64,000 bases of DNA from positions 1-64,000 of the forward strand of contig NZ_VWNA01000001.1 in assembly GCF_009600605.1 (NCBI RefSeq). The letters are read 5' to 3'. The stretch comes from Segnochrobactrum spirostomi. Lineage in GTDB: Bacteria > Pseudomonadota > Alphaproteobacteria > Rhizobiales > Segnochrobactraceae. A model generated the notes under the pieces. That model was not told the origin of the DNA. It was given only the letters and a program-made list of their open reading frames with translations, and made no database searches. The translations under genes and the position numbers were made by a program. This document shows positions 3,577 to 10,906 of the stretch, one piece after another. The stretch's first letter is position 1; every line of letters begins with the position of its first letter.

Positions 3577-4638
3577 ATGAACAAGTCGACGAGAGAGACA
3601 GGGACGATCGTGCACGGTCGCCTCGATCTGCCGGACATTTCGGTCACAAGCTACAATCTGGAGATCAAGGACGAGGACGGGTTTGTCGGCGATCGCGCCA
3701 GCGGCCGCGCCTTCCGTGCGATTCTCGACGACGTGCGGGCGCGCGTCGCCGAGGTCGGAGAGGATCCGCTCGGAGAGGCGCCGAGCGGGGACTTGCGGAA
3801 GCGCACGCTCGACGAGGTGCTCGAAAAGGGCGAGCCGGAGGCCGCGGGCGTTGTGCAGGGGGCGATCGAGACCTTCGCCGGCGAGCTCGCCGGCGTGACC
3901 CGGCGCTTCCTCAAGCAGAAGGCGTGGCGCGGCATTCGCCGGATCGTCGTCGGCGGCGGGTTCGCCGGGGCGCGTATCGGCGAACTGGCGATCGGCCGCG
4001 CCTCGGTTCTTCTCAAGAGCGACCATGTCGACGCCGAGCTGGTGCCCCTCGGTCTGCATCCCGACGAGGCCGGGCTGATCGGCTGCGCCCATCTGGCGCC
4101 GCCCTGGATCTTTGAAGGCTTCGACGCCATTCTCGCCGTCGATGTCGGCGGGTCGAACATCCGCTGTGGGATCGTCGAACTGCGGCGCAAGAAGGCGCCG
4201 GATCTCTCCAAGGCGCGGGTCGGTGGGTTCGATCTCTGGCGCCACCGGGACGACAAGCCGACGCGGGAGCACGCCATCGATCGGCTCGGCGACATGCTCG
4301 GCCGCCTCGTCGCCGAGGCGGAGAAGGACGGCCTGCGCCTCGCGCCGTTCGTCGGGGTCGGCTGTCCGGGCGTCATCGATTCCGACGGCACCATAGAGCG
4401 GGGCGCGCAGAACCTGCCGGGCCGCTGGGACGGCCCCCGCTTCAACCTGCCGGCGGCGATCCGTGAGCGTCTGCCGACGATCGGGGCTCATGAAACGCTG
4501 GTGCTGGTGCACAACGACGCGGTGGTGCAGGGCCTCTCCGTAGTGCCGCGCATGGCCGAGGAGGATCGATGGGCGGTGCTCACCATCGGCACCGGCCTCG
4601 GCAATGCGAGCTTCGCGAAGCGCACCTTACCAGCGTAA
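3577..4638 (+). CDS. ROK-family sugar-kinase-like protein with permuted domain order
   Basis: The 353-residue protein contains ROK/glucokinase motifs in an unusual order. The phosphate-1 motif DVGGSNIRCGIV, normally near residue 8, begins at residue 189, followed by GVGCPGVIDSDGTIERG, the catalytic-type HNDAVVQGL and LTIGTGLGNA at the very C-terminus. The first 180 residues instead look like the end of a ROK protein: helices, then the C-terminal strand RRIVVGGGF and HPDEAGLIGCAHLAP. Total length is normal for the fold, so this reads as a circular permutation rather than a truncation. The zinc site (GHxxx-CxCGxxGC) of many ROK proteins is not visible. It probably binds ATP and a sugar or related metabolite, but the substrate is unknown. 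The SD GGGGAG precedes the ATG. The 3' end overlaps the convergent anti-sigma gene by 12 bp. Confidence 0.75.
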   Translation: MNKSTRETGTIVHGRLDLPDISVTSYNLEIKDEDGFVGDRASGRAFRAILDDVRARVAEVGEDPLGEAPSGDLRKRTLDEVLEKGEPEAAGVVQGAIETFAGELAGVTRRFLKQKAWRGIRRIVVGGGFAGARIGELAIGRASVLLKSDHVDAELVPLGLHPDEAGLIGCAHLAPPWIFEGFDAILAVDVGGSNIRCGIVELRRKKAPDLSKARVGGFDLWRHRDDKPTREHAIDRLGDMLGRLVAEAEKDGLRLAPFVGVGCPGVIDSDGTIERGAQNLPGRWDGPRFNLPAAIRERLPTIGAHETLVLVHNDAVVQGLSVVPRMAEEDRWAVLTIGTGLGNASFAKRTLPA

Positions 4639-5265
4639 CAGGCGCGGCCCGAGCCAGCGGCCGACGAGGGTGACGCCGCCAATCGCGATCGCGTACCAGG
4701 TCGCGACGAAGAACGGGCTGTCGTCGGGGCAGTGGGCGGCATAGAGCGTCGCCCCGATCGCCCCGGCTGCAAGCCCGCCGACGAGCCCGGCCAGTCTGGG
4801 ATCCGCGGGCGCGCCGTGCCGCAGCACCAGCATGATCGCGGCGAGCGGCACCAGCGACAGAAACGGGATGGCGAACAGGCAGAACAGGGCGTTGGAGCCG
4901 ATCCAGCGCGCCGCCCAGGCGTCCGACGGAATGGTCGCGGCCTCGAATCCGAGCCCGGCGGCGAGGAGGGTGAGGGGGAGGGCGAGCACGATCGCCGGGC
5001 GTCGCGGCGTCGCGTCCGGTCGCCCGAGCCGCAGCGCGAGCGCGGCCGCCGGCACGGCGAGGCTCAGCGTCACCACGAACTTGAAGGGAAAGCGCACGGT
5101 GCCGAGCGCGAGGGCGATGTCCGGCCTCACGTGCAGCGTGATGAGAAAGATCGCGGCCGCGAGCGGCAGGGCGACGGCGAGCACCAGAGCGGCGTAACGC
5201 GCCTGGGGCACGGCCCGCTTCGGGCCGTCGGCGACCAGAGCCGCGATGAGATCGTTCGTCTTCAT
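4627..5265 (-). CDS. nrsF: Anti-sigma factor, NrsF family (DUF1109)
   Basis: This 212-residue inner-membrane protein has about six hydrophobic segments (roughly residues 25-45, 60-80, 90-107, 124-148, 158-177 and 186-206), the layout of NrsF/DUF1109 anti-sigma factors. In Caulobacter crescentus the homologue holds sigma-F at the membrane until heavy-metal stress, and two conserved cysteines about 50 residues apart are needed for the response. Here C129 and C179 are the only cysteines and are exactly 50 apart. The ATG overlaps the sigma-factor stop codon by four bases (5262-5265), so the pair is translationally coupled and co-transcribed. It should keep the upstream sigma factor silent under non-stress conditions. 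Confidence 0.88.
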   Translation of the reverse strand: MKTNDLIAALVADGPKRAVPQARYAALVLAVALPLAAAIFLITLHVRPDIALALGTVRFPFKFVVTLSLAVPAAALALRLGRPDATPRRPAIVLALPLTLLAAGLGFEAATIPSDAWAARWIGSNALFCLFAIPFLSLVPLAAIMLVLRHGAPADPRLAGLVGGLAAGAIGATLYAAHCPDDSPFFVATWYAIAIGGVTLVGRWLGPRLLRW

Positions 5266-5819
5266 TCGATCGCCTTCCGATAGATCGCCGCGAGCGCCTT
5301 GAGCCCGCGGTGGAGCGCGACGCGCACCGCGCCCTCGCTCATGCCGAGCCGCACCGCGGTGTCGCGCACGCTCGCCCCCTCGACGGAGAGCGAGCGGACG
5401 ATGTCCCGCTGCCTGGCGCCCAGATGATCGAGCATCCGCTCGACGTCCTCGCCCTCGAACGGATCGGGCTCGGGATCGGCCGGCAGCACCTCGATGAAGT
5501 CCTCGATCGGGGCCTCGGCCCGCCGTCCGCGCCGCCGCAGGGCGTCGAACACCTTGTGCCGGGCGATCACCGTCACCCATGGCGCCACCGGCTTCGCCGG
5601 GTCCCAGGTGTGGCGCTTCAGGTGGATCGCAAGCAGCGTCTCCTGAACGAGATCCTCGACCTCGGCGGGGGCGAGGCCGACGCGGCGCACATCGCCGCGC
5701 ATGGCGACCCGGAGCGCTGGGGCGAGCGAGGACAACAGCATGCGGTACGCAGCGTCGTCGCCCGCAAGCGCCGCCCGCATCCAATCCGTCCACTGCTGCT
5801 CGACCGCCCGCGCACTCAT
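5262..5819 (-). CDS. sigF: ECF RNA polymerase sigma factor, SigF-like
   Basis: The 185-residue protein has only sigma regions 2 (about residues 15-100, with [22 protein letters not shown] and [21 protein letters not shown]) and 4 (about 128-182, with the helix-turn-helix [22 protein letters not shown]), which defines ECF sigma factors. The DPAKPVAPW segment and its coupling to an NrsF anti-sigma gene place it in the Caulobacter sigma-F type group that responds to metal and redox stress. It is transcribed divergently from the buf operon. Its own promoter (5834-5859) carries the same -35/-10 signal as the buf promoter, so autoregulation is likely. The transcript leader would be only about 10 nt. 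Confidence 0.88.
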
Positions 5820-5833
5820 CAGATCGAGTGTAC

Positions 5834-5859
5834 TACGCCGCCGAAGACCACGGTGTTAC
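5834..5859 (-). promoter_or_regulatory. Predicted SigF-type promoter of sigF-nrsF
   Basis: On the minus strand, GTAACA (complement of 5854-5859), a 16-bp spacer, then CGTA (complement of 5834-5837) match the AAC/CGT pattern of ECF promoters and closely resemble the GTAACC-N16-CGAA-like motif reported for Caulobacter sigma-F. The distance to the ATG at 5819 allows a very short leader. Confidence 0.75.
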
Positions 5860-5918
5860 AGCGCGCGTAAAAAATTCTCTCCTCCTCCGGATCGAAGAAA
5901 AAATCGTGGGGGGCCGTG

Positions 5919-5944
5919 TAATGCGGCTTCGGTGCGGTGCGTAG
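5919..5944 (+). promoter_or_regulatory. Predicted SigF-type promoter of the buf operon
   Basis: GTAATG (5919-5924), exactly 16 bp, then CGTA (5941-5944). It has the same spacing and -10 element as the divergent sigF promoter 60 bp away. Transcription would begin near 5951, about 40 nt before bufA. Confidence 0.75.
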
Positions 5945-5991
5945 AGCCCGGTAGCGAGCGGATCGAAAGCTCGCTTTGCAGGAGACACATC

Positions 5992-6282
5992 ATGAACCGT
6001 CGTTCCGTCAATCTCGCACTCGCCGGCTCGCTCGCGAGCGCGCTCACCCTCGCCGCGAGCCTGCCGGCCTCGGCCGCCGACACCGCCGGCAAGGAGAAGT
6101 GCTGGGGCGTGGCGCTCAAGGGCCAGAACGATTGCGCCGCCGGCGCCGGCACCACCTGCGCCGGCACCTCCAAAGTGAACTATGACGGCAAGCACTGGAA
6201 GCTCGTGCCCGCCGGCACCTGCACCACGATGAAGACGCCCTATGGCCCCGGCTCGCTGACGCCGATCAAGCGCCCGACCTGA
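5992..6282 (+). CDS. bufA: Bufferin-type RiPP precursor, BufA1 family (DUF2282)
   Basis: The 96-residue precursor has a Sec signal peptide (charged MNRR, hydrophobic core 8-22, cleavage probably after ASA at residue 28) and a mature part with four cysteines at 37, 48, 56 and 77 in the DUF2282 pattern [16 protein letters not shown]...TTCAGTSKV...PAGTC. Bufferins are periplasmic peptides in which a DUF692 iron oxidase turns cysteines into thiooxazole rings that bind copper and buffer metal stress. The gene has a good SD (GGAG, 5981-5984) and is first in a four-gene operon behind a SigF-type promoter. There is no cleaved leader other than the signal peptide, as typical for this family. The metal specificity here is unknown. 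Confidence 0.9.
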
Positions 6283-6344
6283 TCCCGCAGGCGGCGGGGG
6301 TGCGCTCCCGCCGCCGCTCTCCTCCTCGTCCCGAGGATCCGCAC

Positions 6345-7223
6345 ATGAACGTTCCCGTCTTCCCGGGTCCCGGGCTTCCCCGCCGCGCCGGCGTGGGTTT
6401 CAAGCCGGACCATTTCGCCGACATCGCCGGTGCGGCGCAGCCGATCGGCTTCTTCGAGATCCATGCCGAGAACTATATGGGCGCTGGCGGTCCACCCCAT
6501 GCCCGGCTGGCGCGGCTCCGGGCCGACTATGCCCTCTCGGTCCACGGCGTCGGCCTCTCGATCGGCGGCGAGGACCCTCTCGACGATGACCATCTCTCGC
6601 GGCTCGCCGAGCTCTGCGCGCGCTACGAGCCGGCGAGCTTTTCCGAACATCTCGCCTGGTCGAGCCACGGCGACGTCTTCCTCAACGATCTGCTGCCGCT
6701 CCCCTATACGCCGGCGACGCTCGCCCGCGTCGTCGAGCACGTCGATCGCGTGCAGACGGCGCTGAAGCGGCCGATGCTGCTCGAAAACCCGGCGACCTAC
6801 GTCGTCTTCAGCGAGAGCACCATCGCCGAGACGGACTTCCTCGCCGAGATCGCCGCGCGGACCGGCTGCGGCCTCCTTCTCGATCTCAACAATGTCCACG
6901 TCTCCGCGACGAACCACGGTTTCTCGTCGGCGGACTATCTCGCCGCCTTTCCGCTCGCGGCCGTGGGCGAAATCCATCTCGCCGGCCACGCGGTGGCTGA
7001 TGGGGAGGGGGAGCGGCTGCTGATCGACGCTCACGACCGCGCCGTCTGCGCCGAGGTCTGGGACCTCTACGACCGCCTCGTCGAACGGATAGGCCCGGTC
7101 CCGACCCTGATCGAATGGGACAACGACGTGCCCGATTGGGCGACGTTGCGCGCCGAGGCGGTCGAGGCCGATCGGCGGATGGCGGCGGCCGCGACGCGGG
7201 TCGCCGCGCGCGAAGCGGCGTGA
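6345..7223 (+). CDS. bufB: DUF692 multinuclear non-heme iron oxidase, BufB type
   Basis: The 292-residue protein is a DUF692 (MNIO) enzyme, the family that modifies cysteines in RiPP precursors using a di- or tri-iron centre. Conserved acidic and histidine positions are present: E38/H40/E42/N43 in [12 protein letters not shown]67 in SVHGVG, E101/H102 in FSEHLAWS, E147/N148 in LENPATYV, D180/N183/H185 in [10 protein letters not shown], and E209/H211/H215 in EIHLAGH. By analogy it installs thiooxazoles on the BufA cysteines in the cytoplasm before export. The ATG at 6345 follows GAGG (6333-6336). It lies 62 bp after bufA and 8 bp before bufC. The length is normal and no key residue appears missing. 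Confidence 0.93.
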
Positions 7224-7231
7224 GGCCCACG

Positions 7232-8014
7232 ATGTCGGTGCTCTCGCAATCCGCCGTCTATGCGGCCGTCCGCGATCCCGAAGCGCCGGTGCCGGCGGGC
7301 TTCGCCGGCGATGCCGCGCGCCGCTTCGCGATCTACCGCAACAACGTTGCAGTCGGATGGATCGGGGCGCTCGAAGCGCGCTTTCCCGCCGGGCGGCGGA
7401 TCGTCGGCGAGGATTTCTTCCGCGCCATGGCTGCGGCGTTCGTGCGCGTGCGACCGCCGCGTTCGCGGCTGCTGCATACCTACGGCGACGATTTCCCCGA
7501 TTTCGTCGAGGACTTCCCGCCGGCGGCGGGCGTGCCTTACCTGGCCGACGTGATGCGCCTGGAGGCGGCGCGGACGCGGGCCTACCACGCCGCCGATGCC
7601 GCGCCGCTCCTACCGGAGGCTCTGGCGGCCGTCGCGCCGGAGGCGGCCGAAACGCTCCGCTTCGCCGCCCACCCCGCAGCCGCGATCGTGGCTTCGCCCC
7701 ATCCGATCGTGCGCCTGTGGGCGATGAACGTTGGCGATCTCGCCTGCGGGCCCCTCGACGATTGGATGCCGGAAGCCGCCCTCGTCGTGCGGCCCGGGCT
7801 CGAGGTCGAGGTTCACGCGCTGGAGGCGGGTGCGGCCGCGTTTGCCTTGGCGCTGCTGGCCGGAGTCCCGCTGACGGCGGCCGCCGCGTCGCCGGACGGC
7901 GCGCCCGCGTTCGATCTTGCTGCGACGCTCGGCCTGCTCATCGGCGCCGGAGCGTTCGCCCGCGCAACCGACCTTTCCCCATCATCATCGGAAGACGATC
8001 ATGCCGATCGCTGA
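7232..8014 (+). CDS. bufC: BufC/HvfC-family RiPP maturation partner (DUF2063)
   Basis: The 260-residue protein has the DUF2063 N-terminal domain (about residues 5-95), recognised by RRFAIYRNNVAVGWIGALEARFPAGRRIVGEDFF and the later HTYGDDFPDFVEDFPPAAGVPYLADVMRLEAARTRAYHA. DUF2063 proteins are encoded next to DUF692 oxidases and act as recognition partners that bring the precursor to the enzyme; the C-terminal half is a more variable RRE-like region. The start at 7232 is 8 bp after the bufB stop, with the SD overlapping that stop. Its 3' end overlaps the DoxX gene by 14 bp, so the operon is very tightly packed. It has no signal peptide, which fits a cytoplasmic role. Confidence 0.88.
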   Translation: MSVLSQSAVYAAVRDPEAPVPAGFAGDAARRFAIYRNNVAVGWIGALEARFPAGRRIVGEDFFRAMAAAFVRVRPPRSRLLHTYGDDFPDFVEDFPPAAGVPYLADVMRLEAARTRAYHAADAAPLLPEALAAVAPEAAETLRFAAHPAAAIVASPHPIVRLWAMNVGDLACGPLDDWMPEAALVVRPGLEVEVHALEAGAAAFALALLAGVPLTAAAASPDGAPAFDLAATLGLLIGAGAFARATDLSPSSSEDDHADR

Positions 8015-8510
8015 AATGCTCGACGGCTCAGCCGTCTCCGCCCCCAAAATCTCACCGGCCGTCGCGGCCTTCCGCCTGTTCCGGCGCGGCTGCGAGGCGG
8101 TGCCGCTGTCGCTGATCTCGCTTGGCGCGCGGATCTTTCCGGCCGCCGTGTTCTGGCAATCCGGCGAGACCAAGCTCGAGGGGTGGCACGTCTCGGATAG
8201 CGCGGTCTTTCTGTTCCAGGAAGAATACAAGCTGCCGCTGATCGACCCGTGGCTTGCTGCCCATCTCGCGGCCTTCGCCGAGCATTTCTTCCCCATCCTG
8301 CTCGTGCTCGGGCTCGCCTCTCGGTTCGCGGCGCTCGCCCTGCTCGGCATGACGCTGGTGATCGAGATCTTCGTCTACCCCGACGCGTGGCCGACCCACG
8401 GCGTCTGGGCGATCTCGTTCCTCACGGTCATCGTCCACGGCCCCGGCCTCTTCTCGCTCGATCACCTGATCCGGCGGCGGTTCGATCCCCCGGCCTCGCT
8501 GCGGGCGTGA
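8001..8510 (+). CDS. DoxX-family membrane protein of the buf operon
   Basis: This 169-residue DoxX-like protein has four predicted membrane helices (roughly residues 36-55, 80-102, 108-128 and 135-155). DoxX proteins are common last genes of DUF692 operons and are thought to work in the membrane, perhaps in redox coupling or export of the modified peptide; the exact role is not established. The ATG at 8001 lies inside the end of bufC (14-bp overlap) and is preceded by GGAAG, so translation is probably coupled. It ends 3 bp from the convergent H4MPT-linked gene, with no obvious terminator between them. Confidence 0.85.
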   Translation: MPIAEMLDGSAVSAPKISPAVAAFRLFRRGCEAVPLSLISLGARIFPAAVFWQSGETKLEGWHVSDSAVFLFQEEYKLPLIDPWLAAHLAAFAEHFFPILLVLGLASRFAALALLGMTLVIEIFVYPDAWPTHGVWAISFLTVIVHGPGLFSLDHLIRRRFDPPASLRA

Positions 8511-8513
8511 CCT

Positions 8514-9608
8514 TCAGCCGCCGGCGAGCAGCGCGACCGCCACCGCCGGTGCGGCCCGCGCAGCCCAAGGCGCTGCCGCGGGCGCGACCGGGATCGTCTC
8601 GGCGAGGGAGATCCACCGGCGTCCGAGCCGGTGGGCCAGGGCGCGGCTCAGGAAGTCGCCGATGCCCGCACCGACGATCGGCGCGTCATCGGCAACGGTG
8701 CCGTGCGAGAGCACCAGGGACGCCGCGTCGAACAGGCTCCCGAGCTGGCGTTCGCCGAGATAGTGGGCGAGACGCAGCCAGTCCGCCTCGCGCGCGTCCG
8801 CCGCGTCGTAGCCGACCATGCGGGCGAGGCGGGCGCGGCTTTCGGCGAGGCTCTTGCCCCGTCCGTCCGCCGTCGCGTGCTGATCGACGCCCTCGGGGAG
8901 CTCGCCGGTGATGCGCCGGACGTCGGCCATCGAGGCGAAATATTCGTTCATGAGGGGCTGCCACCGCCCCGCGAACGGCACGCGGTCAGCGATCGCCATC
9001 ACGAAGGTGCGCGTTGCGCCGGTATAGAGGAGCTCGCCGCTCGCGAGCCGCTCCGCGTCGCCGTAGCCCTGGGCCGCCGGCCGGGCGTCCACGATCGGAA
9101 TGAGGTCCGCCGTCGTCGAGCCGATATCGACGAGGAGGGCATTCGGGCACGTCCGCCCGACGAGGGCCGCGGTCGCGTGCCAGTTGGCGGAGGCGACCGC
9201 GGCGACATGGTCTGCGGCGTCGGCGATCGGCAGGAAGCCCTTCGGCCCGGCATAGATGATTGTCTCTGGCCCCAACGCTGCGGCAAGCCGATCGGCGAGT
9301 TGCGAGATGCCGTCGCGGCGCGAGGCGAACGCGTCGGTGAGTTCGGCCGTCACCGTGACGGCGAATGCCGGCGATCCCGTCGCGGCGAAACGCTGCCTTA
9401 CGCTCGCGAGCGCGTCGTCGAGATGATGCAGGCCCTGCCAGAGCGGCGTCGCGATCTGAACGACGTCCTCGATGCGTCCGTCGCGGGCGAGGGCGCCTTT
9501 GGTGTGGGCGCCGCCGACATCGAGCCCGACGATCGTCCGTCCTTGCCAGCCGTGCGGCACGCCGCTAGCGCTTGCCGGCGTGAGAGAGGCAGCGTCACCC
9601 GTGTTCAC
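8514..9608 (-). CDS. Hydantoinase/oxoprolinase-fold protein linked to methanofuran/H4MPT metabolism (MfnF-like)
   Basis: The 364-residue protein has an ASKHA-type nucleotide site near its start (IVGLDVGGAHTKGALARDG, about residues 27-45), a second acidic-glycine loop ALLVDIGSTTADLIPI around 160, and a C-terminal GAGIGDFLSRALAHRLG. This pattern belongs to the hydantoinase/oxoprolinase-like proteins encoded with H4MPT genes in methylotrophs and related to archaeal MfnF, which couples furan and tyramine units of methanofuran. A cofactor-synthesis role is inferred from family and from the fae gene 0.8 kb away. The GTG at 9608 has upstream GAGGACGGGGAC and overlaps the divergent GTG at 9601 by 8 bp. 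A GTG at 9560 is an alternative that would remove the overlap. Confidence 0.72.
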   Translation of the reverse strand: MNTGDAASLTPASASGVPHGWQGRTIVGLDVGGAHTKGALARDGRIEDVVQIATPLWQGLHHLDDALASVRQRFAATGSPAFAVTVTAELTDAFASRRDGISQLADRLAAALGPETIIYAGPKGFLPIADAADHVAAVASANWHATAALVGRTCPNALLVDIGSTTADLIPIVDARPAAQGYGDAERLASGELLYTGATRTFVMAIADRVPFAGRWQPLMNEYFASMADVRRITGELPEGVDQHATADGRGKSLAESRARLARMVGYDAADAREADWLRLAHYLGERQLGSLFDAASLVLSHGTVADDAPIVGAGIGDFLSRALAHRLGRRWISLAETIPVAPAAAPWAARAAPAVAVALLAGG

Positions 9609-10302
9609 GATCGTCCCCGTCCTCGATATCCGTCATCGCCGCGTCGTGCGCGCCCGCGCCGGCGACCGGGCCCATTATGCCCCGATCGAAACGCCGCTCG
9701 CCCCGGGTTCGGAGCCGGTGGATATTCTCGCCGGCCTCGCCCGTCTTCACCCGTTCCGGGCTTATTACGTCGCCGATCTCGACGGCATCGAGCAAGGCCG
9801 TCCGAACCTCGACCTCGTCGCGCCGCTCGCCGTCACGGTACCCGAGGCCGAAATGTGGGTCGACGCAGGCATCGCCGACGCGGCGGCGGCGCGGCGTCTC
9901 GCGGAAGCCGGCGCGGGACGCGTTCTGATCGGCAGCGAAAGCGCGCCGCCGCCCCGTCTCGCGCTCGATCTCACCCAAGAGGGGCACCCGGTCGCCCTGT
10001 CGCTCGATTTTCGCGGCGACGATTTCGTCGGGCCGGCCGCGCTTTTAGACGATGCCGCGCTATGGCCAGACGTCGTCGTCGTCATGACGCTCGCCCGCGT
10101 CGGCATGGGCCGCGGGCCGGACCTCGCCAAGCTCGAGGCGATCCGCCGCCGGGCCGGCGACCGCCGCGTCTTCGCAGCGGGCGGCGTGCGCGGACCGGAT
10201 GATCTCGCTGCCCTTGCAAATGCCGGGATCGACGGAGTGCTCGTCGCCTCGGCGCTGCACGACGGCGCGCTCACGTCCGCCGACCTCGCCGCCTTCGGCT
10301 GA
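9601..10302 (+). CDS. HisA/HisF-like TIM-barrel protein, H4MPT-associated
   Basis: From a GTG at 9601 the gene encodes 233 residues resembling HisA/HisF half-barrels: FTIVPVLDIRHRRVVRARAGDRAHYAPIETPL at the start, the ADLDGIEQGRPN strand-loop, AEAGAGRVLIGSES, and the second-half phosphate loop VFAAGGVRGPDDL with AGIDGVLVASALHDGAL. It has no histidine-biosynthesis neighbours. Genes of this type recur beside fae and the MfnF-like gene in methylotrophic proteobacteria, so a step in H4MPT or methanofuran synthesis is the best guess; the reaction is unknown. The longer frame from 9472 runs through the divergent gene and its extra residues look like antisense shadow, so the GTG is preferred. A hairpin at 10331-10360 follows. 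Confidence 0.72.
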   Translation: MFTIVPVLDIRHRRVVRARAGDRAHYAPIETPLAPGSEPVDILAGLARLHPFRAYYVADLDGIEQGRPNLDLVAPLAVTVPEAEMWVDAGIADAAAARRLAEAGAGRVLIGSESAPPPRLALDLTQEGHPVALSLDFRGDDFVGPAALLDDAALWPDVVVVMTLARVGMGRGPDLAKLEAIRRRAGDRRVFAAGGVRGPDDLAALANAGIDGVLVASALHDGALTSADLAAFG

Positions 10303-10396: not shown

Positions 10397-10906
10397 TCAG
10401 TTCGCGGCGAACGGGTGATGGGCGCTGTTGCGCTGGGCGGTGACTTCGGCGGCGGTCGGCTTGCCGTTGACGGCGCGCTCGAGCGCTTCCTTGGTCGCCT
10501 TGTAGTTGTATTCCTGGATCTTCGCGTCGTCCGAAGCTTCCCAGTGAATGAAGACGCCGACCGAGACGAACAGGTCGTCGGCTTCCTCGACCGGGATGAT
10601 GCCTTCGGCGACCGAGTCCTGGATCGCCTTGGCCACGCCGTACTGGGCCGGGCCGAACATCTGGACGGCCTGGCGGGCGTCCTTGATGGTGACCTTGTTG
10701 AACAGGATCGTGTTCGGCTTGCAGGGCAGGTTCGGCGCGAGAACCGCGAGGAGGGTCGTGAAGCCGTCCTTGTTGTTCGTCAGGGCGTTCACGAACGCCG
10801 TCTCGGCCGCGGAACCGCGGGGTCCGATGACGAGGTCGATGTGGGCCACTTCGTTACCGTCGCCGACGAGAGACTCGCCGATGAGCACTTTAGTGATCTT
10901 CGCCAT
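10397..10906 (-). CDS. fae: Formaldehyde-activating enzyme
   Basis: The 169-residue protein is a full-length Fae. It speeds condensation of formaldehyde with tetrahydromethanopterin to methylene-H4MPT in the cytoplasm, the first step of the H4MPT formaldehyde oxidation route. The sequence closely follows methylotroph Fae: [16 protein letters not shown]-like start with the proposed catalytic His at H22, [53 protein letters not shown] and the HPFAAN end. A strong GGAGG lies 9 nt before the ATG, consistent with the very high expression usual for Fae. The flanking MfnF-like and TIM-barrel genes support the pathway. Other H4MPT genes (mch, mtdB, fhc) are not in the window. Confidence 0.96.

Follow-up and report, generated by a model that had tools for sequence, protein, structure and literature searches.

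The six-gene cluster at 4627-8510 of the window (the entire 64,000-nucleotide stretch of DNA analysed here) is a further member of the known Buf1/sigma-F system, ordinary rather than new. It very probably functions as a bufferin cluster of the Buf1 type that is governed by an ECF16 sigma factor of its own, with a copper-buffering scheme comparable to that of Caulobacter. What unites it with this system, namely its genes, its promoter-like sites, its conserved residues and its distribution, is established directly for the cluster, and leaves the understanding of the bufferin system unchanged.

Gene content and architecture of the cluster

The six genes form two divergent transcription units, namely nrsF-sigF on the minus strand and bufA-bufB-bufC-doxX on the plus strand, which are separated by a gap of 172 bp between sigF and bufA (Table 1). 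The packing is close, with a 4-bp overlap (ATGA) between sigF and nrsF and a 14-bp overlap between bufC and doxX, and the positions, strands and packing of the original prediction are all borne out. Its family assignments likewise stand, as every one of the six products has a Pfam match (E-values across the six genes 1e-11 to 1e-104) and BufB scores 385 against the NCBIfam bufferin-maturase model MNIO_BufB (NF050167), above its cut-off of 310. SigF scores 259.9 against NF009165 (cut-off 198), and NrsF falls below the cut-off of the NCBIfam NrsF equivalog (92 bits; cut-off 300). The 5.4-Mb genome contains a single DUF2282 gene and a single MNIO gene.

Table 1. Coordinates of the cluster, its regulatory features and the adjoining genes in the window
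Feature	Position	Strand	Description	Support or context
ROK-like protein	3577-4638			convergent with nrsF, 12 bp overlap at 3' ends
nrsF	4627..5265	-	anti-sigma factor of six-helix NrsF family, 212 aa	Pfam NrsF E=1.3e-58
sigF	5262..5819	-	ECF sigma factor, 185 aa	Pfam Sigma70_r2 + Sigma70_r4_2
sigma-F-type promoter of sigF-nrsF	5834..5860	-	TGTAAC-N17-CGTA	
sigma-F-type promoter of bufABC-doxX	5917..5943	+	TGTAAT-N17-CGTA	
bufA	5992..6282	+	Buf1/DUF2282 bufferin precursor, 96 aa	Pfam DUF2282 2.6e-24
RNA hairpin, bufA-bufB gap	6287..6317	+		no T-run follows
bufB	6345..7223	+	MNIO (DUF692) bufferin maturase, 292 aa	Pfam MbnB_TglH_ChrH (ex-DUF692) 3.4e-104
bufC	7232..8014	+	partner protein, 260 aa	Pfam DUF2063 1.6e-24
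doxX	8001..8510	+	DoxX-family membrane protein, 169 aa	Pfam DoxX 4.5e-18
TIGR03123 H4MPT-linked protein	8514-9608			directly after doxX
HisA-like protein, H4MPT-linked	9472-10302			
Fae	10397-10906			

The starts given for nrsF (5793) and doxX (7917) in the list of open reading frames are too long, the likely starts being 5265 and 8001. For sigF the start is tentative, as no more than about 15 bp separate the ATG at 5819 from the -10 box, and an alternative at Met14 (5780) would yield a protein of 172 aa. The GC content of the gene island (70.4%) barely differs from that of its flanks (69.0 and 69.5%), so that composition offers no hint of recent transfer. We rejected truncation of the neighboring ROK-like gene by the cluster, given that its homologues align over the same span (up to residue 349 of 353); relatives of this gene were found in only 4 of the 41 genomes searched, its own included.

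Conserved residues and paired promoters

BufA combines the DUF2282 domain with an N-terminal stretch that, judged from the sequence, resembles a signal peptide, and with four cysteines (Cys37, Cys48, Cys56 and Cys77) that are invariant in 125 sequences. This four-cysteine pattern is typical of Buf1 precursors (PMC12452194), with which BufA agrees in these features. The tryptophan following Cys37 (KCWGV) was considered as a unique trait and discarded, as Kaistia has the same residue. The His/Asp/Glu positions of BufB mostly align with those of the structure 3BWW and are conserved among its homologues. Buf1 partner proteins combine DUF2063 with a C-terminal RRE-type domain, and BufC has the DUF2063 match. 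In NrsF, no variation is seen at C129 and C179 across 40 homologues, and equivalent pairs are known from OsrA (C129/C179; PMC3420878), AbcS (C129/C179; PMC8315932) and Caulobacter NrsF (C131/C181; PMC3511200). The succession of an ECF sigma gene and an NrsF-family gene with two conserved cysteines is that expected of an ECF16 sigma-F/NrsF pair.

The published ECF16 consensus is (T/C)GTAAC-N17-CGAA (PMC8315932), and the sigma-F motif of Caulobacter, GTAACC-N16-CGAA, has an equal spacing (PMC3511200). Sites of this type, with CGTA replacing CGAA, precede both the sigma gene and its target operon, lying back to back and diverging within the sigF-bufA gap; the CGTA variant of the -10 element is found throughout related loci. 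Genome-wide there are six GTAAY-N17-CGTA sites, of which two are the pair in this gap and a third, at C1:2355198, lies upstream of msrP. A reversed control pattern is commoner than the motif itself (23 matches versus 6), suggesting that the value of the motif comes from where it is placed and not from rarity alone; outside the paired gap it proves little by itself. Of 27 loci with the divergent arrangement, the window included, 26 have a promoter box facing bufA, as against about 1.5% in shuffles. The choice of T or A in the -10 element appeared to covary between the two divergent promoters (15 TT, 12 AA and 6 mixed; Fisher p=2e-4). When placed on the SigF tree, this pattern reduces to a few clade-level changes and independent pairs give no support, and hence it is not counted as evidence.

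Phyletic distribution and genomic neighborhood

Among 80 homologous loci retrieved by BufB, nrsF-sigF is divergent from bufA-bufB-bufC in 26, nearly all of which also have doxX. The hosts include Rhizobium, Ciceribacter, Kaistia, Chelatococcus, Methylocapsa, Thioclava and Paracoccus. More broadly, an MNIO gene occurs in 50 of 81 sampled genomes, a sample comprising mostly one or two genomes per family of the order. Many related clusters (L001-L007, L010, L013, L015, L017, L030, L076) possess two tandem bufA genes, and the window has one.

Descriptions of the module, in which regulator and operon diverge, date from 2012 for Caulobacter (PMC3511200) and from 2018 for Sinorhizobium meliloti (PMC6180224); sigma/NrsF genes were listed within Buf1 clusters in 2025 (PMC12452194). 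Hence, the earlier proposal that regulator and RiPP operon constitute one module holds with respect to self-regulation, which is supported by the domains, the conserved cysteines and the paired sigma-F promoters. Its implication of something special to this lineage does not hold, the Caulobacter and S. meliloti systems and the 26 of 80 loci being alike.

The closest counterpart is Caulobacter sigF-nrsF (CC3253-CC3252) with CC3254-CC3257, the bufferin 1 operon, in which gene content and order are the same, and which shares the GTAAC-N17-CGAA type of promoter, the NrsF cysteine pair and the inclusion of msrP in the regulon. Control of CC3252-CC3257 by sigma-F has been shown experimentally (PMC3511200). 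The two systems differ in the -10 element (CGTA here, CGAA in Caulobacter), in the number of bufferin operons per genome (one here, two in Caulobacter), and in the H4MPT genes that flank the cluster only here. The S. meliloti rpoE7-ecfR7//SMb20530-SMb20527 system has the same divergent layout, including the four target genes, and a promoter on either side, although its -10 element is CGAA; sigma control has been shown experimentally there as well (PMC6180224). The gold-induced (gig) operons of Cupriavidus and Legionella, published as bufferin clusters, share the core genes but are named after a gold and copper response. Brucella bcrS-abcS/bcrXQP similarly combines an ECF16 sigma factor and an NrsF-family anti-sigma factor with divergent promoters and the C129/C179 pair, but controls a methionine-rich peptide and MsrPQ instead of a bufferin.

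The earlier characterization of the host as methylotroph-like is supported by fae and the other H4MPT-linked genes adjoining the cluster; the genome has two further Fae-family genes. The well-described copper-buffering module is extended to an alphaproteobacterium with C1-metabolism genes. The TIGR03123 gene and fae directly downstream could alternatively mean that the function of the cluster is tied to the adjoining one-carbon metabolism, with the NrsF cysteines sensing formaldehyde or thiol-reactive C1 intermediates. This appears very unlikely, given that one relative within the family (G001) has the module in a genome without fae, another (G002) retains the fae-rsfS-rlmH order without any MNIO gene, and none of the 80 homologous loci has H4MPT neighbors.

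Predicted mechanism, ligand and additional regulatory features

Under the favored copper-buffering scheme, NrsF would keep SigF at the inner membrane in the resting state. Periplasmic copper or thiol stress, read by C129 and C179 of NrsF, would set SigF free to activate the two diverging promoters of the cluster and, probably, the msrP promoter. BufB, as a multi-iron MNIO enzyme, would together with BufC convert the central C48 and C56 of BufA to 5-thiooxazoles. Sec would export BufA, a C37-C77 disulphide would close the peptide, and the exported form would chelate surplus periplasmic copper, with DoxX perhaps fulfilling an accessory membrane role. We infer the signal, the thiooxazole chemistry, copper binding and export from orthologues. 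The expected loss of 4 Da per modified BufA cysteine, as proposed previously, agrees with the published chemistry, in which thiooxazole formation amounts to -4 Da per cysteine (PMC13097082).

With regard to the ligand, the initial suggestion of a copper, cadmium or chromate buffer retains copper as the best-supported candidate, with cadmium and chromate less supported, because the Caulobacter sigF mutant is copper-sensitive (PMC8224329) and the Caulobacter bufferin chelates copper (PMC12452194). Sensitivity of that mutant to cadmium and chromate was reported to be similar to wild type (PMC8224329). In S. meliloti, fusions of the orthologous promoters showed no response to H2O2, cadmium or chromate, in a passage that does not name copper (PMC6180224), suggesting that the inducer may differ by lineage.

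The same genes might instead mainly mediate a response to oxidants or reactive chlorine, with NrsF thiol oxidation freeing SigF, BufA and MsrP guarding periplasmic proteins, and copper being secondary. Other ECF16 systems do answer H2O2, singlet oxygen or HOCl (PMC3420878, PMC8315932), and msrP has the same promoter type here. Nevertheless, ROS generators do not induce the sigma-F genes of Caulobacter (PMC3511200), loss of sigF there results in copper sensitivity (PMC8224329), and the msrP frame appears broken in the assembly, all of which render this alternative improbable. The copper-buffering scheme yields a concrete predicted regulon, namely sigF-nrsF, bufABC-doxX and msrP, the last of which (msrP/yedY) belongs to the sigma-F targets of Caulobacter (PMC3511200, PMC8224329). 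With a single bufferin operon and its regulator in one genome, the system would be a simple genetic model.

The msrP-like gene itself (C1:2355198-2356400; L116:2698-3866) has a TGTAAT-N17-CGTA site, and the frame that encodes its twin-arginine signal sequence differs from that of the mature domain, implying either a broken gene or an assembly error.

The bufA-bufB gap (6283-6344) folds at -34.8 kcal/mol (z=-2.85 against dinucleotide shuffles), and strong hairpins occur in 66 of 105 such gaps, the window included, when compared with mononucleotide shuffles. In a fixed 63-nt window the mean z is -1.36 in the gap, -0.80 before bufA and -0.40 inside bufB, a modest excess over the controls. An Rfam search of the region returned no match, and the bufferin survey (PMC12452194) does not mention a hairpin-type regulatory layer between bufA and bufB. 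We tentatively consider that the hairpin might set the ratio of precursor to maturase through RNA processing or partial read-through, though the odds are somewhat against this.

An NrsF-family gene (61.7 bits) diverging from a second ECF sigma gene is located at C1:1927200-1929300 (L115:3234-5230), and its product appears, by eye, to be without an equivalent of C179. One TGTAAC-N17-CGAA box follows this NrsF-family gene, ahead of a 70-aa secreted Thr/Lys-rich peptide, and another lies upstream of the second sigma gene. A further such box (C1:3129568-3129594; L149:2069) is found just upstream of the gene for a DegP/HtrA-like periplasmic protease, which may be controlled by the second sigma factor.
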